Shown here piece after piece: positions 2,904-43,610 of a stretch of 64,000 nt of DNA. The stretch lies in the NCBI GenBank assembly GCA_003024175.1, contig MDYQ01000151.1:1-64000 (forward strand), given 5' to 3'. The notes below the pieces were generated by a model. That model did not search any database. It was not told the origin of the DNA and saw nothing but the letters and a program-made list of their open reading frames with translations. The translations under genes and the position numbers were made by a program. This stretch comes from Planoprotostelium fungivorum. Lineage: Eukaryota; Evosea; Variosea; Cavosteliida; Cavosteliaceae. Position 1 is the first letter of the stretch; each line of letters starts with the position of its first letter.

Positions 2904-5900
2904 CTATTTCTGTGACCTCTTTCCCTTCTTGAAGACCCTCTTCGTTGAGGAATTGTTGGAAGAAGCACCAATGTTGAAGCCACCAGTATTCTCACCACCG
3001 AAAGCAGCAGGTGAACCAAAAGGAGAGGCATTGAAGGGTGCTGGGGTGAAAGTAGCTGGTTGTGGAGCACCACCAAAGGCGGGCTGTGGGGTACCGAAGC
3101 TGGAACCACCAAAGGCTGGCTGAGAATCTGCACCAAAAGTGAAGGTGGATGTCGCAGGGGTGGAAGCACCAAAAGAGTAGCCAGAGGGTGTGGGAGCTGC
3201 ACTGTTGAAGGTGAAGGGTGCGTTTGGAGTGGGAGTGGGGGTGGGTGCATTGAAAGCGAACGAATTTGAGGCAGGGGGTGTAGAATCGAACATGGATGTG
3301 GACTGTGTCTCCCCTCCGAAGGGAAATGAAGACTGAGTCTGAGCACCGAAAGCGGGGGCTGCTGAGGCACCAAAGGTGGCAGAGCCAAAGGCAGAGGGAC
3401 CGGTGCTGCTTCCAAAAGCAGAAGGGCCACCAAAGGTGCTAGGTGTGGATGCACCTCCAAAGGCAAAGGGTGTGCTGGCATTACCACCGAACGGTGTGGC
3501 CTCTCCATTTCCAAAGGCCGGCGCAGCGGTTGTCATAGTGGAACCAAACATGGAAGGTGTGCTGCTTTGTGAAGATCCAAAGGCAGGAGTAGAGGCTGCA
3601 CCGAAGGCAGGTGGGGCTGCAACAAAAGTGGGTGTAGATGAGGCACCGAAAGTTGGTGCAGAGGCTCCATTGAAGGCGGGGGTAGAAGCTCCACCAAAAG
3701 TGGGTGCAGATGAAGCTCCAAAAATGGGAGTAGAAGCTGCACCAAAGGCGGGTACAGTGGCTCCACCAAAGGCGGGGGTAGATGGAGCTCCGAAAGTGGG
3801 TACAGAGGCACCACCAAAAGCGGGGGTGGAATCACTACCGAAGGCGGGAGTAGATGAGATGCCAAATGCAGGTGTAGAGGAAGCACCCAATAGGGGAGCA
3901 GAGGAAGCAGCCAAGGTGGGTGTAGAAGAGCCTGGAGCCGAGGTATTGCCGAAAGAGGTAGATGCGGGGAAGGATGAGAGCCCGGTGGTAGTGGAATTCG
4001 CAGGTACAGAGGGAGTGGTAGAGGTTCCGAAGTTGAAGCCCAGATTGATCGCTGGAGCAGTGGAGGATCCGAGGGCACTTCCAAAGGGTGCTCCCACTGA
4101 TTCCTGTTTCCTTTGAGCTCTACATTCATTTCTTCTCTCACAAACCTGCTCCATACTTTCGTTTGCCTTTGTCTCCGTTGCAGGAGTACTCAATTTGGGA
4201 GCGGCCACCGAGGAGGTCGCAGAGGGCAGTCCAAAGTCTATCGGATGTGAGTCTCTTCTGATACCCATCGACTCACTGAATACAGGTGCGGGGATCTTGG
4301 GTTGTGTGGTAGTGGATACAAGAGAGGGTGTGTCCACTGCTGCAGGGGTGAAGAGACTGGGAGTCTCCACCTTCTTGGGCTCTGTGCTGTCTGAGGAGAG
4401 AGACAGTCCCACTGGTGCGCTTGATGCACCAAAGCTAAAGGGTGCACTCGATGCTCCCGATGCTGCTGGGGCCATACCAAAGCTGAACATTGGCTTATCA
4501 CTGGTGGCAATTGGGGTCGCACCTACGCCTGCCGATGAGTACTCGAACATCTGCTACAGACTCACCGAAATTGAAAGAGCCGGAGGGTACAAAAGATGAG
4601 GCGGGTTTCTTCACAGGAGGATCTTCCTCACTATCGAGATCGCTTCCTGAGGAGAGTCAACCTTGAAGAACTCTAAGCCACTCACCATCATCCCCATCGT
4701 CTCCTGGGTCGTAGAACTCTGCACCATCCTCCACGATGGTCTTTCCTTTCGGTTCTTCTTTCTTTGGGACGAAAGAAGAGAATTTGATGGGTTTGTTCTC
4801 TGCAGCTGGAGTGGTGCTCGACGGGAGGCTGGTGAAAGGGAGACTGGTGGAGGGGAGAATGGGCTCGTCCACCTTTCTCTTGGTCTCCACTGGCTTGGTC
4901 TCTGCAGTTGGCTTGGTCTCTGGTAAAGGTGAAAAGTTGAAGATGGCCTTGGGTGCTTCGAAAGCTGGGTTCGTCTCTGTTTCGGACGTCTTCTTGCTTT
5001 CAAAGGATGGACCGAAGTTGAAGATAGGTTTATCTGCTTTGGGCAGCTCTTCTGACTTCTTTTCCATTCCACTGATCTTGGGTGCCTGTTGCTCCTGAAT
5101 CATACGGAAGAAGAGCCCTCTCACCTCGCTTCCGACGCCAAACTTGGGCTCGGATGTTGGTGTGGGGAGACTGAAGATGCTCGGTTTCTCCACTGGCTCC
5201 TTTTCCTTCGGCTCCTCTTGAGTCACGTGGTCTTCTATGAGGGATTTCCTCTCGGTGGAAGGTGGAGTCTCCTTTTCGGATGTCTTTCGATAGGGTGTCA
5301 TCTCTCGTGAAGGCTGAACGACTGGTCTGACGGGTGCCAGTACGTCGACAGAGGCCATAGCAGGCTTTCTCAGCACAAGTTCCGCCTCTTCTGGCTCTTC
5401 CCTTGGCTCAGTGGTGGGGGCTCGACGTTGGGCTGGACGTCCAGCTCGCTGGTAGGGTGTCGGTTGTCTCACTGTGCGACTTCTTCCTGCCTGAACGAAC
5501 ATCAGAATCCCTGTTGGATGAATGGATCACCATCTGAGAAAAGTTGCTGATTTCTTTGTTTGGAGTGGAAGCGATGGGAGGACCCTCTCCTGGTATTCTC
5601 TTGACAGCGGTATTTCTGCCGGGAGTGGCAAAGATTCGGCTCGGTGTCTTGGGTGTCTGTACATGTCACTCATCAATTCAACTGTTCTTCCCCACTAGTG
5701 CGGTTTGTTCAACTGCTTGTAATTGACTGACGGCATTCTTCACTCTCTCATCCACTGGAACAGGATCGGTTCTGTACACTGTTATTATCGGATAGTTGAT
5801 CGTGTCACAGCACCTTCCCCTCTTGCTCTTATGGTACGATCCTTCTTCTGGCGATGAATCGATTTGACGTTTCTTCGTGATTCTGGGGGTGGTGGACAAC

Positions 5901-9131: not shown

Positions 9132-12100
9132 CTAAAAATTGCCCTCTCGATTCATCTGCTTCTTCTCTTTGCTTTGCCCAAAATTCTGGTTGAAGGAGGC
9201 TGCGATGTCTCCCTGCTCCGCCTTGACCGAGTCTGATGCCAGTCGAGCTTCAGCCTCCAGCTGTGCTTGGCGATGTTGCTCTTGATAGATCTCGCATAAC
9301 TTGTCGTGGTTCGATCGATCCAGCATCCTGTGTTCTTCCGAGCACCAATAGATGAGATGGCACTGGGTGCATCGAATCAAGTTGTTGGACTTCTTCTTCT
9401 TCATGTCCCACGCAGGCTTTGCACAGACGACGCACATGCTAGTGGGATCCGCTGACCAATTCACATTGTCGTCTGACCCTGTGGGCCTGAAACGGTCCTT
9501 CTGCACTGCCACCGTTCCAATGTCGGTCTGGGGCAGAGCGGTGAACGTGGGCGTGAAGCTAGAGGTAGGAATCTTCTTAGTTTGTTTCTTCAGAGCCTCT
9601 CGTCTCTTGTTGATGTCTTTCGCTTTGCCGATCAGTTCTTGCAGTGCGTTTTGTGTCTGCACAGATCAGCTATTGCCATTGACATCCATTTTTTGAGTTA
9701 CCTTGTTGTCAGGAGACGAGATGAGTTGCTGTATGACTCGATTGACTGGCTCAATCAGAGCAGCCATTTCGTCATTGAGGGCTTGGTGTTGGGCCTTCAA
9801 TTCAGGATCGGTGCATCCATCAATCAGCTCTTGTCCACTTTGGACCTATCATCTTGAGACAGTGCGATCAACATTTGTCCTCACCTGTTTTGTGATCTGC
9901 TTGATATAGCTCTGACCACCCAAACATCTCTCGATCTTTCCAAAGACGTCCTCGAAGGTCTTCTGATCCATCAGCCCAGCCGAATGATTCGGGTCAAGCT
10001 TCAGTAACTTATTGTGCTCGTTCTTTGCCTTTGAGATTAGAGACTTCATGTCACCTTGAGCCTACAACAGGTTAGAGAGGTTATCTTGAGTGAGACCGAC
10101 CTGATCTCCGGGAGATTCCAAGACTCTATCCACAGCACCAGGAAGATCAGCCATGACCTTCCGGATGGCTGCACAGGCCTCTGCAATGCCCTGCTTGGCC
10201 GTAGGATTCAAAGATCGCTCCCCAAACTTAGAGGCTATATCAACCTCCTTCTGCATGGCGGTCACAGCTTGAGCGGCGAGCGATTGTGGTGTCTCATTGG
10301 TGATATTCTCATTCTCTGCTGCAAGTCGATTCTGATTAGATGGAGGCAAGGAAGCTCCATACTCTTGGGCCAACTTGCTGAGAGCCTGAATAATTGATGG
10401 GATGGCTTCGTTGATCTACGCAGTCTGTTAGGTCGCAGATAGACTCGACTTCGATATCTTACTTGATCCTCAGCTCCCAGCTTGCGGAGCTTGTTGGCGA
10501 TTCCCTTTGCCTTGTCTACTAACTGACCGAGCGATGAAATGTTATCCTCTGGCTTGACACTGTCGGGGAACAACACAGCATTCATAGTGTCGCTCAATTC
10601 AGCTCCCAAGGCTTTCATCTCTTCCGCTGATTTCTGAAGACCAGTTTTGTTGGGATCCTTCACTTTACCAGAAGATTGACGTATGGCCGCCACCTGCTGT
10701 CCGATCTAAAGGTGAATGAGTCTCAACTATTATTGGTCAACTCACAGCTGCAAGAAGGGGTCCAATGATCTTCTTCACTTGCTGTTGATCCTCGATCTTT
10801 CGTTTTAAGTCATCTTCTAAGGGTAATTCTGCATAATGTTTGGGAGGATTAGCCGCCTGTTGGGTCACTTCGATCGCCTGAAGAGAGTGGGTGAAGAGGA
10901 TTAGGAGTATCCTTACCTTTTCAGCAGCGATGATGTCCGGGTGATCAGGAATCAACTTCTTCAGCTGACCAGTCATCTGACAGGCAACGTTGAGCAGTTG
11001 AGAGATTTTCTGGTTGTCATCCGCCACCCCCATCACTGCCATCCCGATCTTGGTGAATTTATCTGACATCTACGATCTGATCAGCTCATCCATCATTCTA
11101 TTCATCACCTTGGCCACTTCGGTCTTCTGTCTCGGTTGTGTCAATGAGTCGGCCAACTGTTTCGTCAGAAGTGCCTGCTTGTCTAAGGCTGCCACGAGAG
11201 AAGGCAATGTGGCCTTAACCGCTACGATATTTCGGAGGGCTGGGTTCTCAGCCACCAGTTCGTTGTTCTTCTCTTCCTCCCTCGATCGACTATGCACCAG
11301 GTTCCTTTTGGCCTCTTCGTATTGCTCAATCAATGAATCGATCATTCGGATGCCCGCTTCGTTGTCTGCCATCATACCTAACAGAGTTCATTTCGTTATC
11401 ACAGTGTCTGTCTCACCCTTCGTCCCTCGAATGATATTGTCTGCATTATCCAGAAGATCGGAGAGATGCTGGTAAGATCTTCCTGGCGATTGAAGCCCCA
11501 CGCTGATCGAAGTGCAAGCGTCCTCCAGTTTGGGTAGAAGATGCCTCAGTAGAGCTGTCATTGTTGGTAATTCGTTCCTTTCCGTGGTACTCTTTGGACT
11601 GACTGCCTCAAATCCCTTGATCAACGTGAGGAGAGCTTGACTCAATACTGCTGATACTACAGGATCAGCCAAGTCAGTCATGCCAAGACCAGAAATCTCA
11701 TCGATAGAGCTTGGTCCCGTGAGAATGCTCCTCAAGCGTTTGGCCTTATCCTGCAGAGTTGACTCGTGATCACTCCACCCCGGCGTATTGCTCTCGTCGA
11801 GCAGTTTAGATAGATGAGGGATTGCCTTCTCCTCAATCTTGTCGATCAGTTTGCTCAGCTTCTGGCTGGCCTCCTCTGCGTCCCCCGTTGATAGTCCCGC
11901 CGTGACTTCAGATACCACAGGACAGAGTTTCTCTCCAATGTGTTTTACTCCATCCATGGCTTTCAGATTCTACTGTTCATCAATCCCTCGTGAAATGAAG
12001 GTGCATCACCTCCTTCCTGGCCTTTCCATCACTGATGTTGTCGGCTATCTTCTTTCCTCGCTTCCTGGCAGCATCCAGAATATCAGATACCTCCAAGGAC

Positions 12101-15100
12101 AATTGAACCATCTCCGATTTTTCGTCCTTCGATAATACTCTTGACTTGAACTTGGCCTTCCCGTGGACATTCGTGAATGATGTGCGGTCATCATCGCCTT
12201 CGATTTGACCGTCCTCGGAAGAGAAGGAACTGTTCTTCTTCGCCATCTGTTCTCTCCTTCTTTCATCGTCCAGACTCGAACTTGTTCTCGGAGTGCCCTC
12301 TCCCTCAGTTGGATGAGGTCTATCTCCTTGCATTTGTACTTCTTGTCTCTCTGGTTCGATGAGGTGGTATCCCTCTCCTTTCTCTGGCTCTGATGCTTCC
12401 TCAGGTTCATTGACAATTCCCTGTCCTTCTATCCCTATAAGGCTCTCTGAGTCATCCGCGTCTCTCGCTGTGAAAATTCAGTGGAGAATGATGAGTAGGA
12501 GTACCTTTGTGCATTTCAGATTCGTCTTGGAAGGGGATAAAATCATCGGGGACATCCATGAGGACGGGTTCCATACCAAAGGCTCTTTGGACGACAATCT
12601 GTGCCGTCTCATAGTCTCTCAATTTAGTCATCAAGAGAGGGTTGCTGCTTAGGATGTTGTTTGTTTTGATCAGCGTCTCATGGGCGTCGTCCATCAGTTT
12701 GGACAACTCTTGCAGTTTCTGTTCCCTGTTCTTCCCTGTCTTAGCCTCCTTGGCTACCTTGGATAGTTCCTTGGCAATACGATTCATTTCGTCCTTCAGC
12801 TTCCTCAATGGATTATTTCGATCCAACTTCATCTTGTTGGCCATGGCATCCACCACCTACAATCGTCAGCAACCTCGTGAACTGTTCATTTACCTTGGCA
12901 GTGTCATTCAGGATGGCCACGAGTCTCTCTACGGGCTCGAGTTGAGCGATGAAAGCATCGTATCTCTCCTGTGCCACGGCATTCTGGAGTTTGGGAAGAT
13001 TGTTTCGAATGTACTCCAACATCGGAAGAGCTGTCTCAGAGACGACCATTTCCGTTTCGGGTGCTACACCAACGACCGACTTGCAACCCTGGTTGATGTT
13101 GTCGATGAGAGTTGCCAGTTTGTTGATGGTGTCCTCGTTGGTGTTGTTGAAGATAGCACTCATCACTTGAGGCAAGGCAATTCTAGCCTTCTGCAATGTC
13201 TCGATGGGTTTTAACAGGTTGCTTCGATTTCTGCCCGCTGGAAGATTATTCGCTGCCTCTTGAGCCAATTGGATCTGTAGATATGAATCACACGAAAGAT
13301 ACAGCGAATGAGTTGAGCTATGGACTCACTTGATAGTCGATGGGGTCTAAGATAGTCTCAGCGTTCTGACCGATCTCATCCAAGAGTGTGGCTACACTGA
13401 TTTTCGGAGCTGGAGGTACATTCACCGCCAGAGCCTTGGCGAGTTGGTATTTCTCCTCGATACCATCACGAAGCAGATTCAATTGGGCATTCAATTGATC
13501 CACCTGTTTCCCTTTCAGAAAACCAATCATTTGAAGCATCTCACCTCTGGATCTAGGCCGTGGTGTTCCCCAGAGATCTTATTCATGATCTGTGTCGCTC
13601 GGTCGATTGCATTCTCAAGCTCAGACTTGGCTCTGTCGTCCGTGTTGTTGGGATCTACAGATCTGAATATGATGAGATCAGTGACGAATTCAAGCGAAGA
13701 TTTCATCGGGATGCAAACTTACAATCCTGCGTAGGGAACGATGCGTGCCAACTTCCGCATCTGAGCTTGATCCTCAGGGTCGTATGCTTTGTTTGCCCCT
13801 TCCTCAATCACAGCACTCGCTCGCTGTAGCAGCTCTGGTCCAGTGAATTCTCTCGTGTCTTCTGCACACAGGATAGGTCGATGATGTTCATCGTCCTCCA
13901 GCTCAGCAGGTGCCTTCATTTCTCAGAATCAACTGTCTTGGGATCTCTCACCTCAATCTGTGCCCTGACTTTCTTTGACTTTTGACGGGGGATCTGTTGA
14001 TCGATCGATGCAAACTGTTGAAGAATGGGATGCACTGCGTTCAACATCTCCTGAGTGGGGACCGCTTTACAGGCCATCTCACACACGGCCTCCACATCGA
14101 ACATGATCTACCTCGTCAGATTTGACACAATGATTCATCTCACCTCGCTCAAATTCTGTATGTTCTCTTCCGAGCGATCGGACATGGCTGTGATCGCTGG
14201 TCCAATTGCTGCTGATGCATTGTCCAACTCACTGGCGGCATTTAACAAGTTGGCCCTCTCTAATGGTGGCTGGTAGTCTGCCACATATCGGAACCTATTG
14301 GCTAACTCTTCACCGATCTATATGTCTCAGTATAGAACGACAATGGAAGGTTCACCATTCTGGATATCTGCTTCGCTACTTCTGCTAATAATCTCTGCTG
14401 TTCTTGTAAAGCCGCTCCCTCTGTGATAGAATGAGAATTGTCATCGTCATTACACATCAACGATCAATGGATACAGACAAAACGTACCTTTCGGTAATCT
14501 GAACCATCTACGCATGGCCTTATCAGCATCCCTGCAATCCTTGCTTCTCCTGGTTCGCTCATCAGGATCATTGCTGAGAGCTTCCTTTCTGGCCGTTCTA
14601 CAAGCGAGTTGAGCTTCATCCAAGAGTCTCGCCAGGTATTGATTATTGGTGGGATTGGGTGGTCCTGTCATCACCAAGGCAGATGCATACTTGATGCCCT
14701 CAGCTAGTGTGTGGAGTGTCTGCCTAGCCTTTGTTTGTTCCTCCTTGATGGCAGGCTCCGATGCTCTGTGACCCGCAATCAACGCCATGGCTGCTGAGTC
14801 ACACAGAATCGATATCATGTCTGTCACAGGATCTAACGCCTTCAGCTTCCTATCAAATCACATCTCACTCTTCTCTCCCGGATTGGGTGTGAACACAGTT
14901 GCCGTCTTGTTTCCGGGTGCAGCAGCCATGGCCGGTTTCAGTTGTTCGATGCTTTCTCGGATCTGTTCGTGGATCTTCTGGATATCTGCGTTGCTGGGAT
15001 CCGCTTTGCCCAGTGCTTGTGCAGCTACAGCGTTGGAATCGATCATTCTGCACAGCTGGTAGTGAGGGTAATTGCTCTCGGGGTAGATCTCATGAGCCAC

Positions 15101-18100
15101 CACGGCCTGCTCCACTGCCTTACCGATTCTCTTGAGACGTTCGTTGGCCCTCGATGCGTCGGGCTTCGTGTCTGGGCCAGCATTATCCATGATCATTTGA
15201 GCTAGAGGCAGAACTTGGGCCACTGAGCTGGCCACAGTTCTCGCGATCATGTGAGGGAGTCTCTCTTCGGGTGTCAAGTTCTTCAGATCCTCCGGTACCA
15301 CTGCTTCACTCAGTTTCATCTCTCACTTTCTCTCACCTTCGTAGATTTCTTCCAGTTCTTTCGTCGGGGTGATGGAGAGAACAGACTTCTCTCTGACCAC
15401 TTTCCTCTTGATGTCATCAGGCATCCCCAATCTCTTCTTGGCATCGACGACGTGCCTATCGATATCTGCTGCCTTGGTGTTCAAGTGTGGATCACCCGCA
15501 GCCAGTCGAGCCGCTCGATGAACGTTCTCGTGGGCTTGATTCAAAAGCTCAGAGAGTCTCTGGACGTCAGCCTCCTGCTCTGGTGTCTTGTTCTGTACGG
15601 TCACATTGGACACCACGGAGGCGGCGAGGTCAGCCATGGCGATTCCTATCTTCTCCATTTCAGATTCTAAATGCTGCAGCGATGCTTTCTGCTGTGGGTT
15701 CGATGCTTTCTCAGCCACAATGTAGCACATGGCCGCTGCATTATGGATGTCCTTCACTACATCTTCCAAGGCCTCTGCGGGTGTATTGGCAGCTGGTGGA
15801 AAGTCAGACATAGAGCGATAGTCATGAGATACTCGCTTCTCTGTTGTCCTTCATCGGTGCCTCTCCTTCTCATGTCATCCAATCTGGGCAGTAATTGTTT
15901 CAGAGCGTGGATACCATTCAATGCGTCTCTGACGTCTTCGTTGGGCACAGAGCCATTTATGATCTTGGCACCCTCCTCAGCTGAATCGAGGAGAGACTTG
16001 AGTAGTTCGAGAGGATGGACCGCATCCGTGTGGATCAGAGATGATCGAAGCAGAGGAGCCACCTCGTTGGCGGCACGGAGTAGATCGAACGAGGCCTTCA
16101 AGCAGGCCGTACGGTTGCCTTCCTTCGCCTCGACCGTCTGGCTCATCTCCTTCGTGGCTGCAGAGAGACGCTTCAGAGCAGGTTCCAAGTGAGAGAGAAT
16201 GGCCTCCGGTGAACCCGATTCCAATGACATGGAAGGAGGTGGCTGGTAGGTCTCCTGATCGTGCTTACTTCTCCTTCCTTCTGCTTTGGGGAGATACTGC
16301 CTGAACACTTCTGGGTATTTGATGATCTCGGCGTGTGGTTGTCCACTCTTCGCTTCTCCACTGAGGACTACGAGTGTCCTCTCGTTGTCAACTAGATCCT
16401 CCAGAGAAGTTAACAGTTGCTCCTGAGGTGCTGGGTTCTCTGGTTCCGCTCTGATCTTCTCCACTAATTTACCAATTATCCTCGCTGTGTCCTCCAACTT
16501 GTCCTCGATGGTGCCCAGAGTGAAGCCAATCTCATCACCTGCCATAAATTTTGCCCTCTCTTTCGCCACTTGAGCCTAATCTCAATCAGTCTCTGAGAGA
16601 AAGAGATCCGGGTAGATCACCTGCTGATTAAGGATGTGCTGTATCTCATGAACGAGATCGTGGAGCATTCCCTTATTCATCGGAGTGGTCGTGGCTTTTG
16701 GATCACCCAGCTTGGGCAGCATCTTCTTCATTCTCGTCGAGAAGTCGGGGATATCTGCTGCAGCCTTGCTCTCTCCCAACTCTGCATCACACTGTATCTC
16801 TTTTAGTTCAATTCCTCCGTGTGAATCTCACCCTGATGATCTGGTCGTTTGAATCTACGATTTGTTCGAAGAGAGAGTTCAGCATCTGATAAGACCGCTC
16901 TCCGTTGGGTTCAGCTTCCACGGCCCTGACAACATCCAGTAGCTCGTCAGCCGCCCTCTTCATCTGCTGACTGGCATTATTCAGTTTGCCCGCCATGAGA
17001 ATATCCGCGTGCTTCTTGTCGCTGCTGTTGATCAGAGCCTTCGCCGCGATGGCCGCTTCCTTCATCATCATCTCAGAGGCTTTTTGTGCCAGAATGGCAA
17101 GAGGATCCCGATCGGACAACAACTTGGACACTTGAGGGTACATCTTGGCTAGTCGCTTGCGGTAGCTATCGGGCAGATCGATCAGATCAGAGATCAGTTT
17201 GTCCAACTCTGGGCTCAAGCCACCGTTCATCTTGCTGGCGGCCGAGGCCACTTGATCGAGGATGGAGGACAAGTTCTGATAGGTGGTATCTGAGTGAGGA
17301 TCCACCTTCTGTCCGCTCAACATCTCGGCTCCCTGTCTCAGCTGTGCTGCCAACTTGAGCATGTCCGCCTTGTTCTTGCCCATCAGCTTCGAGGCCTCTA
17401 TCAGTGCTGCCTGTGCCATCTCGATCATCTGGGAGGAGAATTGGTTCATCTCCTCATTCGGTGGCTTCCCGATGTTGACTCGAGGTGTGGCCGGCATCAT
17501 CGCTCTTCCTTGCTTCAGTTGCTCTCCCAACTTGGGAAGAAGGTTCCTCGTGCCCTCCGGAAGACGCATCGCTGTGGCATTGGTCTGGTCTCTCGATTCA
17601 AGACCCAGTTGTGTCGAGCTGGTCTTCGCCTCGATAGATGATGCATCGTCCAATAGCTCTGACTGTTTCCTCATCTCTGCCTCTGTTCCTTGAGCTCCTA
17701 TCGTCCCTTCCTTCTTTTGGGTTCCTGCTGTTCCTTCCTTCGCCTTGCCTGCCATTGCTTCCCTCTGTAATCTCGCTGCTTCCAATCGAGCGACTTCTGA
17801 TCGTGCTTGCTTCATGTCTAGACTCGTGGATTCGTCCTCTAAGCTGCTCGATGTTCGGGCCTCTCCTGTCTGAATGGTTTGACCCATATTCCGATCAGAT
17901 GTGTCACTGGTGGAGGTACCGGAGGAGGTCATCTTTTTCGATCCTAGTTGAGGCAGCAGTCGACGGATGACCTCCGGAAGTCCGGCCACTCTTCCCAAAC
18001 ATTCGATGGCTGTCGCTGAATCGACTCCCTCTGTCAACTGAATGGCTTCTATGCAGAGTAAATCGATATTCATTAGATTGTGAGATGATGTCACCTTGGA

Positions 18101-21100
18101 GTTCATCTAATAGATTCGACAGTTTTTGGGAGTCTTCTACTGATGCCTGCGGGGATTGGACACGCTCGACCATATCCGTAAGCTGATCAGCACAGGCGAA
18201 CAAGACTTTGGAGGCCTTCAGAAGGGCTGACGATCTCTCACGATTGGCTCTGCCGGCAGCAGCCCCCAACTTGGTAGCTGCGTCTCTGAAATCATCTTGA
18301 TCGATCAACTGGGCGATATCCTTCTCGCTATTCTTCTTCTTCTCCACGCTCGTCTTCTTGCTCGCAGTGATGCCCGACAGAAGCTGCCTGACTGCCTTGA
18401 TCGCTTGTTTCGACTTCTCCAAAGAGGTCATGGGAGGAACAACCGTCTTGGCCTTATCGATCGTGTTCTCTGCTACATCCATCAATCGAGATAGCTCCCC
18501 CGTTTGTTCTTGTATCGCGTTGGGCTCATCAACCATCGGTTGTAGTGCTCTCACCACCCTGCGCAGTTCATTGACGTTGATGTTGAGTTGGTCTGCCTTG
18601 TTCTCGTCGTTGTCATGCGTGGCCTGGGCTGCACATAATTCAAGAGACGAAGCTGATTCCTGTAGAGAAGCTTGACAGTCGGAGATGACCGTGGTGGGAG
18701 GCAGGTGGATTCTCCTGTTGGCATCCATTCTGGGGAGGAGCTTACGGAAGGCTTCTGGTATATCGTGCATCTCTAAGCTAGCTCGTGACTTTTCTGTACC
18801 CGGTGCAATCTGGCATGCCTTCTGAAAGTCTTCTTGGGCGATGTCCAATAGATCGGATAATCTATTCTTTCAGTCACATATACAACCCCCATAAATGAGC
18901 TCACCTCTGTACGGGTTCTTCAGCTCCTTGTTGAATGCGATCTATACAATCATTGATTGATCTGGCTGTTCTGCGCAACTTCTCCGCTGTCTGCTTGATC
19001 TGAGTAGGAGAGATCTGCCCGGCGGGTGTGGCCGTATCTGCAGCACTGTCCAAGAGATCAGCCTGGCTGTTCATCGAGTTTGCCATCGACTTGGCTATCT
19101 CGAGGAGCGTCTGGTTGCGCTCATTCAACTTAGGCAGTAACTTTCTGAACGTCTGAGGCATGTCTCTGATGTTTTGATGTCCTCCTGACCTCTTGACATC
19201 CTCGGATAATCTATTGTATTCAGCAACTCTATCACACGTGATCCGATGAACGATCACCTTCCAGAACGCTCGTTGGTATCTGTAAGTTGATCTAAGCATT
19301 CGGATAACTTTTGATAGGGGGCCTCTGCGTTGGGCGTCTCGCACAGTTGAGAGCATACCTTGGGTATTTCTACCGCCAAGATGGCCATGTCTTCGGCCGA
19401 TCTCAGCAGCTCTGTGATGCTTGCTGGTGATGAATCTTCCTGCTGAGATGTCTCTTTGATCAGTTGCGCCTGCTTCTCCAGCGTGTCCTTCACTTTGAAG
19501 GCATATTCTTTCAACTCAGCCGCAATTGCCGAGCGAGGGTTCAATCCGGGAAGAAGATTCTTGAAGGCCACCGGAAGATTGTCCATCTTGTCGTCCAGAT
19601 CCGAAGGAAGAGCTCCGTAGTCAGGAGAAGATGCCACGTTCTTCCAAGAGTCGTGTGTTTCATCGAGGAGATTCGACAGATCGTTGTACGCTGCGGAGTG
19701 AAGCAGATGAGATGGTTGGGAGTAGATCGATAGATCCTCGGAGATCTTTCCTAGCTCTGCAGCCAAATCCAGCATCGCCTCGCTGTCCTTCGTGACGCCT
19801 CCCGAGCGATAAGCTTGTTGAACGTTGTCCGATTGAATGGAAGCCAGATCAGCTGCCTCGGCAGCCAGCTCAGAGAATTGTCGTCGGGCTTCGGGGTCTC
19901 GTGCGTTGAGTTTGGACAGCATCTTTCTCAATCGTTCGGGTAATTCTCTCGCCTTCTGTGCACTGAGCTTGCTCTCGTCACTTTGTACCGCAGTAGCCAC
20001 TCTCTCCGATGCAGAGGCGGCATCTTCGAGTAGTTGTGTCAATTTCTGATCGGGTACCTGCACCCTTCAGTGCCATTCACGTCAGACTCTTCACCTTCTC
20101 GATGGTTTCGACCACCTTGGGAAGCTTCTCTGCGGCTCTCCTGAAAAGCTTTGCAGAATGATTCAGGGCCTCGGCAGATGCAGGGGAGATGGCTCGACTG
20201 GCCAATTGTTCGGTTGCAGTAGCCTCTTGGTTCAAAAGGAGGCAAGAAGACTTGACGAGATCTTGCAGGGCGCTTGGCTTCTGCTCAGTTCTTCCGTGGA
20301 CTCTCGCTGGGAGTCTGGTCAACAATCTTCTGAATGCATCTGGTATAGAGACAGCGTCGTGATGAAGTTGGGTGGTGGTGACGCTGAGAGAAATCTCTGC
20401 GATCTTATCGTTGTGATCGGCGAGCTGTTCTTTGTCAGTAGGAAATAATGCAAAGTGATGGATTACCGTGTCTAACAATTGAGCCATCTGCTGGTATGGA
20501 CGATTGAGATTGGGATTATCTTGGATGGTCAAGGCGAGAGAGACGATACCGTCTGCATTCCTCTTTAGATCCTCCGAAATCTTCCTCAATTGTGTCTGTG
20601 ATGGTCCACTCTGTTGGGCTAGTTGGGAAGCCTTTTGAGATTGTTGTGAAATGATCGCAGCAGCTCTCGAAGCGAGAGAAATCAATTCGGAGCCTCTCTC
20701 TCTCTTCTTCGTATCACCCAGACGAGGCAACAATTTTCTGAATCTCTCTGGTAATTGATCCAGACCAGTAGACGTCTACACTAGTTCAGTTACCGATCGC
20801 ATCGCCAACATCACCTTATCCGTCTCCGGTGCGAGCTGTCTGATCTTATCGTTGGCCTCGGCAACATCATCTAAGAGAGAGCTAAGCTGTTGGAACGGCC
20901 TCTCCGCGTTCGGATTAGCGCACAGACTCTGCACCATCGGTCCAACGGCCTCGGCCGCCTTCTCCAAGCTCTCCGCCATCTTAGCCAACTCTACTGACTT
21001 CTTCGCACCCGCTGCTCTCTTGGCTACTGCGATGGCTGACTTGGCTTGCTTCTGCACTGCCTCGGCCAGTTCAGCTCCCAACACGGACACGGCCACTTGT

Positions 21101-24100
21101 GGCACCGTCGTCTTCTCCTTTCTGGATAGCCACTGAGCCAATTTGGGGATCAGCTTCTTGAAGCCATCGGGTAGTTCTGAGATGCTTCGGTGACCCTTCT
21201 CGGACATGGAGGGTGCCAGCTCTGCCGCCTTGTCATCCGCATCAATGGTCTGATCCAATACGAAGGCGAGTCTCTGGTATGGTTCTTCACTCAGGGATTC
21301 TTTGCTCGCAGCTTGGGCCACGTCTTCAATTCTGTCGCGATGATTAGTTCAGTGGGGTCGAAAGATTCACCGATTCATGTTCTTAGCGAAGATTCCGTTG
21401 GTGATTGACAGAGATCCCATCACTTCGGCTGATTTCTGAGCGGCGGTCTGTGCACTGGTGGACGCAGCATCCAGGATTCTCTTCGCCTCTTGACCGAATT
21501 GAACCATAGTTGACTTTGCTTCCTTTGATTTTGAGTCAAACTTTGGCAATAATTGCCTCAGTCGATCGGGAAGAGATAAGACCTGACCTCAGTCAGATAC
21601 ATGATGCACTCTCCATGGTTGGTATTAGATCACGATGTCTCACTTGTTTGTGTTCATTGCCATTACTAATGTTGAATTGTGACATCTTCTTTTCCTCCTC
21701 TGCCGCATCGTCGATCAATCTAGAGAGATGGAGGACTTGCTGCTCCGTTGGGTCATTATTCTGCGCTTGCTTGATCATGGGCCAAACTGCGTCAGAGGCT
21801 TTCTGTATGGCGTTCGCGGTCTTTGATAATTGAGACATCTTAGCTGCCTCTTCTGCAATGGCAGCGGCTAGCTCCTCAGATCTCCTCTGTATCGTTGCCT
21901 TCGCCTCGGATGCCAACTGCATGACTGCCTCCTCCGTCTTAGTGGGAGCCTTCTTCGCCCTAGAGGCTAACTTGGGAAGTAATGCATTGAATCTATCTCG
22001 CAAGGAGGTGATGGTGCTGTGCTGTGGCCTCTTTTCTGCTCCAGAATTGAGGCTGACTAAACTATTCTCCGTTGTTTCGATGTCGTCCAGTAACTTGGAT
22101 AGATGATCGAGAGCCTCTGGAGCATCACAATCTCTCTGAATATCCAGGACGGCCACAGTCACCGCGGCGGCGGCACGGTTCAGAGCAGTCGAGGCAGACT
22201 GAGAATCCTCTCTCTTAGAAGCGAATAGAGCCTGTTGGGTGAGAGCCAAAGTGGCATCAGAGGATAAAGCTGAGAGTGCCGCGTGTACATCAGGTGGAAG
22301 TTTGTAGGCGGAAGAGCACAGTCGGGGTACATACTTCTTGAAATGTTCTGGTAGGATGATGATGTTGTTGTGGGATTTGATGCTTGACAGCTCCGGAACG
22401 ATAGAAGCCGTCTTGGCGTTGGCTGCGAGGCAGTCATCCAGCAGCTGACTCAATTTCTGAGGTGATGAATCATCGCTGGGATCGTTGATCAGGCTCTGCA
22501 CCAGACCGGGAAGAACCTGATTGAATGTTAACCATGAATCAGAGATTCAACCCACCTCTGCAGATCGTTTCAGCACTTGGCTCGCATTCATCAATTCGTT
22601 CTTCTTGTTCGTCTTGCCCACGAGATCATCAGCTGCGCTTGCTTGCTGCTGGAGGCACAGAATCGCGTGGTGAACCAATCTTTGCAGTGCCTGTCCACTG
22701 CTCCCAGCTCTTCCACCACTCTGTTTCGCCACTGTCATTCTGGGAAGTAATCTCTTCAGGCGGCTGTTCAGGTTACCGATGGACCCTTCGGTGTCATTTG
22801 AAACGAGGGAGAGGACATTGTCCGTGAGGGTCGTTGTATAGTCTAACATCTGTGAAAGAGACTGGCTGGCCGCTTCGTTCTTTGGATTGCTTTTGACTAA
22901 TTCTGCCGCCTCGACAAGGGAAGCACTGCTCTCTTGTAACTTCTTTGAGATGTCTTCTGCCTGCTTCCGTTTCTTTCCGCCTAACTGTGGAGCCATGCTC
23001 TTGACCAACTCCGCTTGTTGCTTCAGAACGGATGATATCTGATATCGTCAGATGAATGAATGTCAGACAACGTCACCTCGTGAGCTGTGGAAGGTAATTC
23101 GTCCACGATCATCTTGGTCTCTGCCTCTGGATCGGCTCTGAGAAATAGACCCAACAATCTCCTCATCTTATTCATCACTGGTGATGTCTGTTCTTTGAAT
23201 TTCTCTCCCACATCTGAGGAGTTTCACGAAACATTTCATCTTGCATCTCACCTTTCTGGATCTTAGAAGATACGTCATCCATCGCTGTCGAAGCATGATC
23301 CAGCAGTTCACTCAGCTGCTGTGTTCCTGCCTCCTCCGTAGCCACTGCAGTGGGCACCATCTTCTTCATTCAGACCTCATTCACTCGCCACCTCTCACCG
23401 TCTTCGAGCATTCGAACAGTTTCTTTCCGATCAATTTTGCATCCGTAGAAGAAGAGAGGGGAATGAGCTGCTTGCACTGATCCTTCAGCTGAGCACCCAA
23501 CTGCTCTGCACATTGCACTAACTCTGAGGCGATCGTCTTGTTCTTTCGACTCTCGATCTGCTTCGTGAGGACGGACCTCTGAGCGAGTCTAGGTAGCATC
23601 GTGCGTTCGTATTGACCCAACAGAGTGGTCAGATCTCTCTGTGCCTCCATCGTGACAGGAGAGTCACCCAGCAAGCGCTTAGTATCATCCAAGGTATTCG
23701 TAGTGGCATCGATCATCTTGGATAATTGCTGCTCGAAGGCCAAATTATCTTCCTGCTTTGAGATGTATTCCAACGTGCTCCCCATGTTCTGTAGATACTC
23801 CACGCCCTGTTTAGGATTAGAAGGTAGAAATAAACGACTTTCACCTTGATCAGCCTCTGCTGCTTCTCCGCATTCTTCTCTGTTGCAGACAATATCTCCG
23901 AAGCTAACCTTACGAGGAATCAGGCGAGGATGTACACGAGAGGAAGTGCTCACCTCTTCGAATGAGTGATCATTCCGTCAGTGATGACGGCTGACGGGAG
24001 TGATTCCTCGTCAGCCAAGGAGCAAGAGGCAGCCTCCGGAGCAGAGGCCATGACAGCGGCGTGCACTAACTTCCTCATCTGCTGAACCGATTCGGTCACG

Positions 24101-27100
24101 ATCTTCCCCTGCCTCTGGGCATCTTGATCTTCTGGCGTCAGGGATCTCAGATTGAAGCTGTCGTTATCCACTTGGTCCAATAACCTGGACAACTTCTGTG
24201 TGCCATCTGGATCCTTCGCCGCATCGTAGACCGTCGCCTGCTTGACGACTGCCTCGGACACAGTCTCCAGCAGTCTCGCACACTGCTGTCCCTCCTGCTG
24301 TTTATTGCTGTACGTAATATCTGGTTCAAGTCAGAGGAGTGTGAAGAGTATGCTCACTCTTGATCTTTGGTTCCATCGTCTTCATCTGATTGAGCACGGC
24401 CGAGCGGATCTCCCTGGCGTGATCTAACACGGCCGCCTTCTCGATGGCTCTCATGTCATAAAGGCCAGTGTCCGAACTGAACCTCTGGAGAGACTGCAGT
24501 CGTTTCCTGGGATCGTAACGATCTTGCAATCTCCTCAGTTGATCGTTAAACTTGTACTCGGGCACGATGTTGAGACTGTCTTCGGGGAGCATGGATCCAA
24601 CTGAGATGAAGGTGTCACCGAGTTCGGCGAGGAAGGAGGAGAGTTGCTGGTAGAGGGTCATGTCCTCTGGTGCCTTCTGCATCAGTTGCGTCGTTTCAGC
24701 GATCTTCTGGGCGACGATGGATATCTTCGCTGCGCTCTGCTGCAATTTTATCCTCTTGTTGCCCTCCATCCTCGGTGCCACAGTTTGACATAACATCAGC
24801 AGCTGTCGTCTTCAGAATGGAACGTGACATCCTTCATTCACCTTCTGTATCTCTACGAAGGTGGGCATATCTTCAGGCGCTGCGGCTAGTGATTCGATCG
24901 TCGTGGATTCTGCGGGCTCAGCGATCTCCGTTTGATTACTCGGTTGAGCACCAGGCTGCATCGATGAGTAACGAGCCAACTAACGATGACTCACTACGTG
25001 ATGTCGGATGACCATGAACTTCCCCAGCTTGGGTAGAAATTTCTTCTGTGATCTCTCCAATTGATTCAGCAAGTGATCTCCAGTCAGCAGTAAATCCTCG
25101 TGATCCGGTACAAGGTTGAGGAGAGTCTGATGAGCCTCGCTGGCCTGGTAGATCAGCTCTGCCAGTCTGGCCTGTGCCTTTTCGTCATCCGGCTTCGCCT
25201 GTACGGCGGCGGTGGCCGTGACAATGTCCTTCGAGACGGCCTTCAAATTCGCTGCCACTTGTCGCAATTGCCTACGTTGGTCTGCCGTGTTCACCGTTCC
25301 GCTACTGACTCTCTCTTCGGCGATCTTAGCCTCTTGCAGTAGCGTGACGGATATGTCTTGCATCATCTACTCGAATCAATCTGCGCTTCTTCTCATTCGA
25401 CTCACCTGTCTCTCTTGTTTCTGATGCTTCTCTGCGGGAGACTCCACTGGAACGTCGATTCTCTGGTGGATCTTCTTATCTAATTCGCTCAACTGGGCAA
25501 AGGCACCACTGCCTTCGTCCATCAATCTGTTGGTGGTCAGTCCATTGAAATTGAATGTCTCTCACTTGTGGTCCTCTGGTAGATGCTTCCTGAGACCTTT
25601 CGCCACATTATTCAGCTGATTGAGCATCTCTGATAGCACCACGTATTGCTCTCGCTTGCTCTCCACTGGCTGTGGAGACTTGTCGATCATCTTGAAGGAG
25701 GTCAACACCTCATTCAGCTCTCTCTGGAAATCATCCGCCAGCGCAAACAGTTGCTCCCTCTCTCTCGTCTGTGATCCGTTGAACATTCCCCACTTCTGCT
25801 CCATCTGTTCCAAGGTTCCAGCGATGCTGGATAACTGAGCTGCGTCTACAACGGATCGTAAGACTCTAGTGGTGGCATCGTCGAGGGCGAAGATGGAATC
25901 TTCCACGGCCTTGTGATCTTGGATGATGAATTGCTCGTCGTTACTCAGTTTGCGGAGGTTGTTGTTCAGCTCGTACGCGTTCTCGATGAGATTTCCGAGC
26001 TTCTCCGTTCCCAGGATACTCGTTCGGTTGTCCGACCACTCTTTCGTGGCGAAGACGATGTCACGTGACAGGTTCTGCAGCATTCCGGCGTATTTGGAGG
26101 CCAGCCCTCCCTTCTGACGATTTCCAGCGGAAGTGAACTGTTGAGAGATTCGTTGGGCGTTCTCAGACTGCTTCGTCAGCCCCTCCGACACCACCTGAGC
26201 TAGTTTCTCCTCGGGTGATACAGCCGTCTGTTCCATTCAGTATCACGGATGAGATGGAATGATAGAGGACAGTCAAGAATAGGAGAAGCACCTCTTGTGG
26301 GGCAGATCTAAATCCGAGTATTTCCTCCAGACGGTTCATGTTGGCGATGGTCTCTGCCTCGTTCTTCGACAGATTCTGATCATCAGGAAGCACTGTTCCC
26401 ATCTGAAAGATCTGCTTCCTACATTCCTCCAGAATCTCAGCCAGTGGCTGTCGGCTCTCTTCAGAAACTTGATCGGATATGAACTTGGGTCCGCTCTGCT
26501 TCAAAGTCGCTCCAGCCCTCTTCAATAGATCGTACGCTTCGTTGATGGCAACCTATTTAAATTGTGAGAACCAGAAACACACCGAAATTCCTATGAAATT
26601 CAATGAATCTGCCCACCTTCTGTCTCGAAGTAGATGCAGCGGCAGAACCTTCTCTTCCGATCTTGAGGTGCTTCTGAATGCCCCGAATGACATCCGTCAA
26701 CAGACCCTCTAGACTGTTCTCCGAAGACACATACTTCTCCTTCACATCGTTCGCCAGCTTGAGCAGCTTCGTGAGCTCATTGTTGATGGCCTTCTCGTTT
26801 CTCATGAATGTGTTGGACTCGGAGGACCACTGCTTCATCTTGGACGATGCCTTCTTACCCACTTCTGCCAATTTCGAGAGGTTCTGCCAGTTGGTCGTGT
26901 TCGTTGGATCCGACAGGATGTCGTTGATGATGGGCACGATACGCTCGGAACATTTCTTGAGGCTGACGAGAGAGTCTGCACCCACCCTCTTGGCATCTGA
27001 GTCACTGTTCTTCTCCTTCAGATTCTTCGCGATCTTCGCGTGAGTCGCAAAGTAATCGGAGAGGCTGGTGGCGTGCATCTGCATCTCGTCCTTCTGTGGA

Positions 27101-28671
27101 ATGTCCAGCAGAATCTTTCGGGGTTGAGAGGGAGACGCAGAGGCGGCGACTCTTCCGTTGTTGTCCTCTTCATCACTGATGTGAGAGGCGATGGGGATGG
27201 CATCGGTGTAGGACGTCAGCTCTCCTCTCTCGACTTCCCTCGAGGATCTCGTTCTTCCTCCCCTTCCCTCTCCGATCTGGCGCAGTCTGGCTATGGGGGC
27301 TAAGAATCGCTTGGAGTTACGCTGGATGGCCTCGGTGACGGAGGGATCGTCTTGGGATAGAAGCTGTCTACGTCAGACGATTCCATCTTGGATGTAGAAT
27401 GAGAGACAATTCACCTGGGATGACTTCTCCTCCAGTGTTCGACAAGTCTGGGTGAGTCAATCGTCGAAAAGATGCGTGGGGCTCGAATCTTATCGAGTAG
27501 AGTCGTCTAGCCGAAGAAATGTAGGAAACGAAGAGGTATGAAAGGAAGGCGAGATGAATAGAGGAGGTCACCTCGATCCATTGCAAGATTCTACTGTTTG
27601 AAGGAGAGCTGCCACCCTGTACAGATAACTCCATCTGCTCTCCCATTCTCTCCATCTCCAAGCAGACTTCGAGTACAGTCTCTTTCTGTTTTGCGGTGGT
27701 GAATGTGCTGGAGGATAGGTATTGTACAAGCTGCGCGTGGTACACCAGTGTGTTGACGAGAGCCATGATAGCCTGCTGCGTCGTTGTCTTCTCGTTGATC
27801 TGTGCTGCTCTTGGTGATCTCGGTCGAGAGGGCATCAAAGGATGATTCTCTAATATCCTGGATTAATGGTGAGATCGAAGATGCAGTCACATGATTGTGA
27901 TGAAAGAGCACATCAACGTGATTACGATACGTACCCCTGTGAAACGTCTCTGAGTAAATCATTGTTGGTGGTCAATCGTGGTTGAGATGTGACAATACGT
28001 TTGATCCGTTCGGCGGTAGACTGAGAGGTGAAGATGACCTCTGATAGCGTCTGAAAGGGAAGTATATCTGCAGGACTGGAGAAAGCATCCTTCTTCGCTT
28101 TTTGAAACTTTCGGGCCAGTTGATACAAATCATTGTTGGCCGAAGAAACTTCTGGGGATTGAGATGTTCGGGTGACCTAACATCATGTGTGAGCAATCTA
28201 AAAGAACTGACGATCGCTCACCTCTTCACTCAACAGAATGTGCCGCTGGATGCTCAATTCGAATTGACGAGCCAATGAATCCACATCCTTGCCATCGTCT
28301 TCACTCTGTACGCCTAGAATGTTCTCCAGTTCAGAGATGAGTTCCAGTGCGGTAAACGTGATGATGCTCTGATCCACATCCTCGAAGTTGATAGATTGCG
28401 AATTTTGTTTCCTGTTTCGCAATGTCAATGGGTTCGCATCGTTGACAGAAGATCACCTCTTCCTAGCGGCAGTGGCTTCCGTTAACCTTCTCTTATATGC
28501 AGCAGTATCATCGCTCTCGGTAACTTTAGAACTGGAAGGCAACTCATACAGAATTGACAGAATTGCCTTAGCGTCTGAACTTATGCCAGGTGCCTGTGTG
28601 CGTGAAGGTACCGCGGTCACCCATTCAACACTTCTCTCGACATACTCTACAGCCCTCCGGATGAACTCCAT
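9132..28671 (-). CDS. Giant tandem helical-repeat protein with C-terminal MYND zinc finger
   Basis: One minus-strand reading chains from MEFIRRAVEYVERSVEW (28671) to ..KKQMNREGNF (9132) through roughly 50 introns of about 35-60 nt. I tested several joints by frame: 15320-15350 (IYE|VVPEDL), 14815-14865, 20430-20465, and a probable GC-AG intron at 15793-15836. The estimated length is 5,500-6,000 residues. Composition is Ala/Leu/Glu/Lys-rich and helical, talin-rod-like (for example AKSAIAVAKRAAGAKKSVEL). The centre holds at least 18 units of about 130 residues. Low-complexity linkers lie near 12000-12430 and 17640-17900. The C-terminus has a MYND finger (9270-9440). I see no FERM, I/LWEQ, actin-binding or membrane segment. 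A large cytoskeletal or docking scaffold is inference. Division into two or more genes cannot be excluded without RNA data. Confidence 0.75.
9270..9440 (-). other. MYND-type zinc finger at the end of the giant protein
   Basis: Ordered ligands CVVC, then CTQC, then YWCSEEH and HDKLC fit the MYND pattern C-x2-C, C-x2-C, (Y/F)C-x3-(C/H), H-x3-C, with His in one position normally held by Cys. MYND fingers mostly bind proline-containing peptides such as PxLxP. It is separated from the helical region by a Pro/Thr-rich linker (TSSFTPTFTALPQ) and followed by a Gln/Ala-rich helix. Confidence 0.8.
15879..22755 (-). repeat. Array of at least 18 coding repeats, period about 403 bp
   Basis: A motif of the form [F/L/I]+xLLPKL recurs at about 22745, 22332, 21981, 21552, 21150, 20731, 20322, 19923, 19553, 19141, 18737, 18380, 17956, 17541, 17152, 16720, 16293 and 15890. 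Spacings run from 351 to 432 bp with a mean near 403. Examples are LKRLLPRM, FKKYVPRL, FNALLPKL, FKKLIPKL, FRKLLPRL, FKNLLPGL, FRKLLPKL, TRNLLPKL and LKQLLPRL. Between them each unit usually carries a second marker, QLSxLLDDxxxANDKI (LSQLLDDCLAANAK, LSSLLDDVAEANDKI, LAFVLDQTIDADDKA). Looser copies extend to both sides (LLRHLLPKL near 11555, FLPKLGK near 25030). Confidence 0.85.
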
Positions 28672-32784: not shown

Positions 32785-33375
32785 TCAATGGTGTCTCCCC
32801 ACAGTCAGACCGATGCTGAGGGAGATGGCAGTGGCCAGCACCAAGATGCTGAGCAACACTAACCCTGTTATACCCAATGCTCTCGCTGCTCGATTGTTCT
32901 TCTGAGGACGTTCAGCGGGCATCGGATGGTAACAACTCCACCTGTTTGTTGACAAAGAGAGCGCCCAATATCCATATCGGAGGAAACAAGAAACCGAAGA
33001 TGAATATGAGTATTGGAAAGACGATCCGTCTTTGTGGCTGCTGATTGACGGTGTTGACTATGGTCGATTTGTCGTACATCTCAATGTCTCCCTCTGCATA
33101 ATACCCTGGAAACGGTTGTTGCTGTGGTTCGTACGTGAGGAAGAGAGACATCATCACGAACTCACCTGTGGGTACGCCTGTTCTTTTGGCGTCAGAGGAG
33201 GCACATAAGAAAGTCCAGGGGGTAAGTAGCTCACAGTGGGAGAGAAAGTGTTGTCTTGTGAAGGAGCGGGTTGTGGATATCCAGAGCCTGTCCCAGCATA
33301 ATCGAAATCATCAACACTGTCGCCCCCAGCACTTCTGAGGGAATCATTTCTCACTAATGTAGGAGGAGCAGACAT
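32785..33375 (-). CDS. Proline-rich protein with two membrane spans
   Basis: Starts MSAPPTLVRNDSLRSAGGD at 33375. The N-terminal third is Pro/Tyr/Gln-rich (YPQPAPSQDN, LPPGLSYVPPLTP, PFPGYYAEGD). Two predicted membrane spans follow: VFPILIFIFGFLFPPIWILG and, after an intron of about 40 nt near 32900-32940, LGITGLVLLSILVLATAISL. It ends LTVGRHH at 32785. Two other introns are supported (33120-33165 gtgag donor). The PPxY-like N-terminus facing the cytosol could recruit WW-domain ligases, which is a guess. No named family is recognised. Confidence 0.65.
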
Positions 33376-33686
33376 CGTGAAAGGGTGTTAATATATAGTT
33401 CTTTGATACGTGAATCGTAATGCGTTGCGTGTTGGGTGATGTGATGAATATGCTTTGAGCGGAGTTTCTTGTTGAAATCTCCGACAAAACTGGTTCATCT
33501 CGGATTTCCTCCTTACGTCTCTTTCTGCAGTAGTAATCCTTCAGATGATCTACGAAGGTTTCAAGTTGGTTGTGCACGTATGTATAACCGACCGGTTCGA
33601 ATGCACAACGTGATGACGATCTTTGTCTTTGCAAGGAGAATTCACACAAGAACGAAGGAGACGTTTGTATGTTCAACTTTATAACT
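33376..33686. other. Intergenic, no gene seen
   Basis: This is the 5' flank of the two-span membrane protein and 3' flank of the GPI protein, both on minus. Short open frames exist but lack coding texture. Confidence 0.4.
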
Positions 33687-42776: not shown

Positions 42777-43610
42777 TCATTTGACCTTGATGACGATCTC
42801 TCCGTTCAAACTGCCAAAGGTTGCATCTTCTGTGACGATCCACTGGTCCCACGCTCTCTCCATATCCTCTATCTGTTCTTTCTTCCACTTTCCATCTTGC
42901 AAGAGCTTCTCCCTCATTCCTCCGTCTCTGAGGCGTTCTCTCATTGCTCCTCCCCACATCTTTCTCTCCTCGGGGGTGCTGTAACAGAACGATCCAACCG
43001 AGTAGGTGATGTCTTCTCTCTTAACTCCGGCCTCCATAGCCCACGCCACAAGTTTAGAACCGGCGTTCATGCAGGAGGTGACCTGGCCGATGGCCTGCTG
43101 GAAGCTGCGGAGGCCTGGGAGCTCGGGATGGACGGACCATGCCTTGAGATCGGCGTCACGGATTGCGATGATGCCTCCTGTCTTACAGACGCGCAACATC
43201 TCTTTCACTGCTCTATGAGGTTCGTTCAAATGGATCAACACTTGGGACGCGTGCACTATGTCGAACGAAGAGTCATCGAAGGGGAGAGAGTACACGTCGG
43301 CGAACTTAGTCTTCACGTTGTTCTGTCCACATTCTCTTGCATGAGATAGAGCTCTCTCTAGAACTTCGTCCGAGATGTCGGTCGCTGTGACTGTTCCTTC
43401 GGGAATATACTTGGCTAAAGAGGCCGAGATGGTGCCCGGTCCAGCTCCCACATCAAGGAGGTCGATCTGAGGATGACTCTCGGCCATGTTCATCAGGTGA
43501 GGAAGGAGGTAGGCAGCGTGACTTTCGGCGGTTCTCGATGCGTGATGCTGGATGTGACTAGCTTTGTAACCGTGGATGTAGGTTCTATCGGTGGTCTCGG
43601 CTTGTGCCAT
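42777..43610 (-). CDS. SAM-dependent methyltransferase (class I), intronless
   Basis: A 277-residue open frame starting MAQAETTDRTYIHGYKASHI and ending LNGEIVIKVK. Motif I is LLDVGAGPGTISASLA; motif II is TVTATDISDEVLERA; acidic NFADVYSLPF-type loop is KFADVYSLPFDDSSFD; motif IV region is IVHASQVLIHL; then EMLRVCKTGGIIAIRD. This is the small-molecule or UbiE-like methyltransferase pattern; the substrate is not predictable. It is the only gene of this size in the window without introns, which could mean recent acquisition or retro-copying. Its stop faces the TMEM135 stop 195 bp away. Confidence 0.85.
   Translation of the reverse strand: MAQAETTDRTYIHGYKASHIQHHASRTAESHAAYLLPHLMNMAESHPQIDLLDVGAGPGTISASLAKYIPEGTVTATDISDEVLERALSHARECGQNNVKTKFADVYSLPFDDSSFDIVHASQVLIHLNEPHRAVKEMLRVCKTGGIIAIRDADLKAWSVHPELPGLRSFQQAIGQVTSCMNAGSKLVAWAMEAGVKREDITYSVGSFCYSTPEERKMWGGAMRERLRDGGMREKLLQDGKWKKEQIEDMERAWDQWIVTEDATFGSLNGEIVIKVK

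Follow-up and report, generated by a model that had tools for sequence, protein, structure and literature searches.

A giant predicted protein of tandem helical repeats in Planoprotostelium fungivorum, with a probable likeness in shape to vinculin/talin-type bundles and a C-terminal MYND finger

What kind of protein results when a short motif of the FRKLLPKL type recurs again and again over thousands of residues? This question is raised by a locus of Planoprotostelium fungivorum that occupies the minus strand between positions 28,671 and 9,132 of contig MDYQ01000151.1, within the stretch of 64,000 nucleotides that was analysed as a whole and is called here the window. The answer to which the evidence inclines, by a modest preference, is a giant rod made of at least 30, and perhaps 36–40, helical bundles of the vinculin/talin type, which would carry a MYND finger at its C-terminus for docking and would work as a scaffold or tether.

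The repeat array and its gene model

The window reads as eukaryotic DNA, in which the coding frames are interrupted by apparent short GT-AG introns. The gene was drafted ab initio, by GT-AG dynamic programming run at seven intron penalties, and the resulting drafts range from 40 to 57 exons and from 5,255 to 5,462 amino acids (aa). The draft used throughout (intron penalty −12) keeps the MYND finger whole and has a near-top repeat score. The gene and its central array are as follows.

9132..28671, minus strand: whole gene, ab initio draft of 46 exons and 5,462 aa, with its stop at 9132-9134 and an imposed ATG at 28671
15903..22759, minus strand: core array of 18 FRKLLPKL-type motifs separated by 17 intervals, from the spliced draft and the unit profile

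In the draft model the reading frame runs on across the whole array by way of predicted introns. The stop at 9,132 is also reached by unconstrained drafts, which start at 27,835 and 28,624 and not at 28,671; the latter is an in-frame ATG, equal to the coordinate given in an earlier, sequence-only reading of this DNA, and was imposed on the draft. Some of the predicted exon ends are surely wrong, and one in-frame intron has probably been retained in the unit near 20,440. The predicted protein is rich in alanine, leucine and glutamate. It would be giant, as had been proposed, and the size of 5,500–6,000 residues first attributed to it lies just above that of all the drafts.

The spliced draft contains 18 copies of the motif, from LKRLLPRM (22,759) to LKQLLPRL (15,903). 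Their genomic spacing of 351–433 bp (mean 403.3 bp, standard deviation 24 bp) reproduces what the sequence-only reading had described, namely at least 18 copies between 15.9 and 22.7 kb at a mean of about 403 bp. In the protein the spacing is 107–139 residues with a mean of 123.7, slightly less than the 130 or so residues first assigned to the unit; the genomic period exceeds the one derived from the protein because introns lie inside many of the intervals. A second marker had been said to accompany each motif, in a form resembling LLDDxxxANDKI. It is met by a strict regular expression (LSxLLDD...) in 12 of the 17 intervals, and divergent forms of it can be recognized by eye in the remaining five. 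A recurrent intron site within the repeat, suggested by rough coordinates, was rejected: when positions are taken from the profile alignment, the fullest bin holds three of 25 phase-0 introns, where the null expects 2.6 on average (P 0.54).

A profile of the unit was built from an alignment of 14 hand-cut copies, and chance matches were evaluated on the six-frame translation of the window, whose 1,631 fragments of 25 or more residues were all searched with it. Matches at E≤10 number 37, every one on the minus strand and inside the giant gene; ten of these fragments include parts of the seed units, and among the 27 that do not there are 17 with E<0.01. All unit matches fall between 28,671 and 9,132. 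In the spliced draft, a first pass detects 36 unit domains at an independent E-value (i-E) below 0.01, spread from residue 349 to residue 5,317.

The count itself was given a matched control, with one sequence per search (the forward protein, its reverse and 50 shuffles). The reversed protein yields five unit domains at i-E<0.01, the best of them at 8.7 bits, and the shuffles yield a mean of 0.02 domains, with a best score of 5.1 bits. Since 30 of the 36 forward domains exceed the best reversed match (fourteen of them at 86.9–132.4 bits), the secure number of units is put at 30 or more, and the six lowest-scoring domains cannot be relied on one by one. An iterated profile finds 40 units in the same draft, but its scores are raised by training on the very protein that is then searched. 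Neighbouring units share no more identity than units far apart (a mean of 0.217 for distance 1, vs 0.210 over pairs of 17 core units), and there is therefore no sign of recent local duplication. Searches of viral contigs and of genome contigs returned no relatives of the canonical unit.

Probable resemblance to the vinculin/talin class

In two of three profile searches of the PDB, the best natural match of the repeat is a member of the vinculin/alpha-catenin family. Searched against the sequences of the PDB, a profile of 29 units has VIN1 (6bfi) as its best natural match, with E 2.1e-5, to which a stretch at i-E 0.004 and three further, weak stretches contribute. Over roughly 100 residues the alignment is interrupted by one gap, of a single residue, and an NP loop that links the second helix to the third is preserved. 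Talin-1 (0.07–0.5) and vinculin (0.25–0.5) are also found among the best 60 of the 91 matches of this profile. The 14-unit profile reaches VIN1 at E 4.1e-5, and an alignment of the unit with its context reaches the FAT domains of Pyk2 at 0.002–0.018 and vinculin at 5–10. The 14-unit profile is the one that was also reversed as a control in the PDB, and none of VIN1, vinculin or FAT is among all 58 matches of that reversed profile. When the units are compared by hhalign with a three-sequence segment of VIN1 and vinculin, the probabilities are 79% (29 units) and 76% (14 units), and 0.1% for both when reversed.

One canonical unit was modelled with its context, from an alignment of 13 rows that all come from the window.

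20815..21330, minus strand: canonical unit with context, 172 aa, AlphaFold2 model with a mean predicted local distance difference test (pLDDT) score of 75.6

The model consists of three long helices (residues 76–105, 109–138 and 143–166), most of which lie within residues 81–170, where blocks of pLDDT reach 84–93, and of a motif helix (residues 47–69) that is predicted with low confidence (56–64). When this model is compared with the PDB by Foldseek, ranks 1–4 are tails of vinculin and metavinculin, with probability 1.00, template modelling (TM) scores of 0.60–0.64 and E-values of 0.018–0.054; the first-ranked vinculin tail has TM 0.63 and E 0.018. Thirty of the best 50 of 391 matches are of this class: 26 vinculin or metavinculin, three alpha-catenin and one talin R3. 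The talin-like texture, the signature of its own and the helical units that had been read from the bare sequence are supported by the unit profile, AlphaFold and Foldseek taken together.

The likeness can be stated more precisely for each of the known systems. With the vinculin/alpha-catenin family (VIN1 6bfi; vinculin tail 5l0j, 1rke) the giant would share antiparallel helical bundles of similar size, those of the giant being predicted. This family provides the best natural profile match in two of three alignments and the best fold match, and the NP-containing loop of VIN1 stands at the same place, ahead of the third helix. In contrast, vinculin and alpha-catenin have a handful of bundles and the giant would have at least 30 per chain, together with a LPxxFRKLLPKL helix of its own, a C-terminal MYND finger and no Pfam vinculin match in the parts scanned. 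The talin rod, which has 13 bundles, is likewise a long tandem of helical bundles, and its R3 is among both the fold and the profile matches; the giant differs in its predicted number of bundles, two to three times higher, in having a MYND finger, and in lacking a detected FERM head, I/LWEQ module and helices like the vinculin-binding sites of talin. The FAT domain of Pyk2 is a helical bundle of the same broad class, but FAT is a single domain on a kinase, whereas the giant has a tandem array.

Several results weigh against this assignment. Designed coiled coils top the lists of the 14-unit, context and 29-unit searches. The reversed 14-unit profile reaches designed bundles at up to 1.3e-5, which implies that composition alone can yield E-values of this order, and it also touches two talins, R3 at 1.2 and a second one at 3.9. 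After VIN1, the next natural protein for the 14-unit profile is the unrelated Med15 (E 0.006), while unrelated sensor proteins (0.07–0.12) and GGA3 (0.18) are interspersed among the best 60 of 91 matches of the 29-unit profile, and VIN1 is not among the 49 matches of the context alignment. The hhalign comparison is not independent, because its segment was chosen as the best match. In the reciprocal direction the result is not significant: taken as a whole, the giant obtains E 22 with a profile of that segment, and 13 of 20 shuffles do better, although its best single domains reach 8.4 and 6.8 bits, vs a best of 0.9 for the reversed protein. As for the structures, Foldseek gives no match below E 0.001 for the unit model in the PDB, and a model of two units is poor (pLDDT 62.9). 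Its fold matches are mixed and include receptors and pore proteins, rank 2 being talin R7R8 (E 0.079); they were set aside, the model being too poor. Vinculin (PF01044) is not matched at E≤1 in ten fragments and the first 1,539 aa, nor in the last 2,487 aa at E≤10, and no Pfam talin match was seen in the fragments, in the C-terminal or N-terminal part, or among the best 25 of 48 weak families for the 14 single units. Finally, the vinculin-binding-site consensus of talin (LxxAAxxVAxxVxxLIxxA) has no relaxed match in the giant; the reversed protein has one, and the shuffled mean is 0.07.

The remaining Pfam results concern the repeat more generally. Apart from the MYND finger described below, no model exceeds its cut-off, on the repeat or elsewhere, in the ten fragments, ten further pieces and the two terminal parts (N-terminal 1,539 aa, C-terminal 2,487 aa); fragments and single units cover the middle of the protein. 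Taken one by one, the 14 units give a best E of 0.0071 among the best 25 of 48 weak families, a set in which there is no vinculin or talin family. The proposal of a new family holds as far as Pfam is concerned, and is tempered by a weak similarity that leans to vinculin, alpha-catenin and talin bundles. A strong profile match to talin or vinculin, which the sequence-only reading had named as evidence against itself, did not appear: the best one, VIN1 at E 2e-5, is moderate and stands below designed coiled coils.

The C-terminal finger, the proposed rod and its rivals

The sequence-only reading had seen no named domain in the protein. This holds for FERM, which has no match at E≤1 in residues 1–1,539, and for the I/LWEQ actin-binding module, which does not appear when the last 2,487 aa are scanned at E≤10 (12 families matched). 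It does not hold for the last exon.

9294..9434, minus strand: MYND zinc finger in the last exon, PF01753, 27.3 bits vs a cut-off of 22.7 in the open frame of that exon

The zinc ligands follow the correct order (C-x2-C-x17-C-x2-C-x5-C-x3-H-x7-H-x3-C), and on the exon the score is above the curated cut-off. The finger differs from other MYND fingers in its fusion to a giant rod and in one ligand position, which reads C-x3-H here and C-x3-C in the MYND consensus. Two observations speak against the call: scored within the 2,487-aa C-terminal part, the finger obtains 22.6 bits, near the cut-off, and phmmer finds no match for it in the PDB at E≤0.1. It is intact in four of the seven drafts and split by a predicted intron in the other three.

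A mechanism can be proposed on this basis. One spliced gene would give a mostly helical protein of about 5,400 aa, in which each unit of some 124 residues may fold as a bundle of three long helices, a prediction that is confident for one unit and extrapolated to the others. The short amphipathic LPxxFRKLLPKL helix may join or cap adjacent units. The whole chain would then be a flexible rod of great length that serves in the cytoplasm as a scaffold or tether and presents, on its bundles, many docking faces of a similar kind. Talin bundles unfold one by one under load, and those of the giant may do likewise. The usual binding mode of a MYND finger involves a short proline-containing peptide, and by analogy the finger could dock the C-terminus of the rod to a partner through such a peptide. 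Talin itself is a force-transmitting rod, amoebae included (PMC12686525, in part, and otherwise general background). A mechanical or docking role for the giant is inferred, as it was in the sequence-only reading.

The similarity to vinculin and talin could also have been reached from another origin. Alanine-rich amphipathic helices give similar bundles without common descent, so that the giant may represent an independent family of tandem bundles whose shape merely converged on that of vinculin and talin, and which would still serve as a long scaffold that docks by its MYND finger. This alternative carries considerable weight, although it is not the favoured one. It accounts well for a repeat with no Pfam match in the parts scanned and with a LPxxFRKLLPKL signature of its own, for designed bundles that beat natural proteins and turn up with the reversed profile as well, for the reciprocal search that is not significant and for a context alignment without VIN1. 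It accounts less well for the loss of VIN1, vinculin and FAT when the profile is reversed, for an alignment to VIN1 that runs over about 100 residues with a single one-residue gap and the NP loop kept, and for fold matches that cluster on vinculin. Taken together, these observations indicate that in shape the bundles probably belong to the vinculin/talin type, and that shared descent with vinculin and talin is suggested but unproven.

Two other explanations stand much lower. The giant could be a highly divergent true member of the talin/vinculin family, for instance a talin without its FERM head and actin-binding tail, an idea that fits the resemblance of the bundles, their talin-like size and their tandem arrangement; it is made improbable by the lack of any FERM, I/LWEQ or talin rod match in the parts scanned, by the absence of helices like the vinculin-binding sites and by the MYND finger at the C-terminus. 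Even less credit is due to the idea of a spectrin-like or generic coiled-coil giant, in which the regular spacing would reflect internal duplication without any bundle-specific function. The composition, rich in alanine, leucine and glutamate, and the coiled-coil designs in the PDB lists would suit it, but ANC1_spectrin is the sole spectrin model found, at E 0.012 in one of 14 units (among the best 25 of 48 families), and the ten fragments and the two terminal parts (1,539 and 2,487 aa) yield none; moreover, in the predicted model loops interrupt the helices about every 30 residues.

If the rod of vinculin/talin-type bundles is accepted, a further and more tentative proposal can be made: that it belongs to an undescribed family of giant rods with 30–40 bundles, a capping helix of their own and a C-terminal MYND finger, possibly a mechanosensitive tether with an evolution separate from that of talin. 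Such a protein would couple a rod of the vinculin class to a signalling-type zinc finger and not to a module for integrin or actin. It would suggest that integrin-type adhesion is not the sole setting of vinculin/talin-class rods, and would offer a natural test of how the number and order of bundles set the behaviour of a rod. The repeat also accounts for roughly 5,000 residues that Pfam leaves without a model. Among the titles and abstract openings that literature searches listed, none describes this architecture, and any orthologues in eukaryotic sequence databases could well carry the label of uncharacterised proteins.

Divergent units, the N-terminus and neighbouring genes

On both sides of the core the units are more divergent, and the protein includes other stretches.

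28457..28671, minus strand: first exon, with the N-terminal stretch MEFIRRAVEYVERSVEWV, amphipathic by eye
22800..28176, minus strand: N-terminal divergent units found by unit-profile matches, with the motif mostly degenerate
17561..17944, minus strand: low-complexity S/T/E/K-rich stretch seen in the sequence, residues 2983–3110
9669..15850, minus strand: C-terminal divergent units, unit-profile matches at E 6e-10 to 0.005
12010..12428, minus strand: acidic low-complexity linker exon seen in the sequence among the divergent C-terminal units

Ahead of the core, the draft contains nine domains on the first pass and eleven after iteration. The matched fragments lie at 27372-26560, 26236-25565, 25366-24983, 24811-24329, 24330-23953, 23977-23384 and 23369-23178 (all within E 5e-9 to 0.004), and one more lies at 28176-27925 (E 0.015). 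After the core, matches are located at 15850-15326, 15322-14861, 14857-14453, 14317-14138, 13325-12816, 12856-12455, 11969-11391, 10705-10265 and 10415-10065, several weak units of this part scoring within the range of the reversed control. The S/T/E/K-rich stretch replaces most of one unit, and an iterated unit match is partial and restricted to its end. Six LD-like strings occur in the draft protein.

The first-exon stretch contains no named domain in the Pfam scan of the N-terminal part. Upstream of the gene, no FERM head can be seen by eye in the minus-strand fragments between 28.7 and 34.4 kb, which resemble other short genes. One of the short genes in that region (32788-33387, minus strand) has a proline-rich start and hydrophobic stretches and is possibly a small membrane protein, by eye; another frame (33690-34378, minus strand) has a long S/T-rich tract and a hydrophobic tail, and looks by eye like a C-terminally anchored cell-surface protein.

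Elsewhere in the window, a low-complexity protein rich in FG and SAPxFG (2907-5526, minus strand) is FG-nucleoporin-like by eye and has no Pfam match at 0.001 in the two frames scanned. Three further minus-strand observations are a fragment with a DUF3684 match (47209-47712, E 3.1e-15), a 279-aa open frame with an S-adenosylmethionine (SAM) methyltransferase domain (42780-43616, Methyltransf_11, E 4.9e-23) and a strong match to Cryptococcal mannosyltransferase 1 (62172-63197, PF11735, E 1.2e-35).

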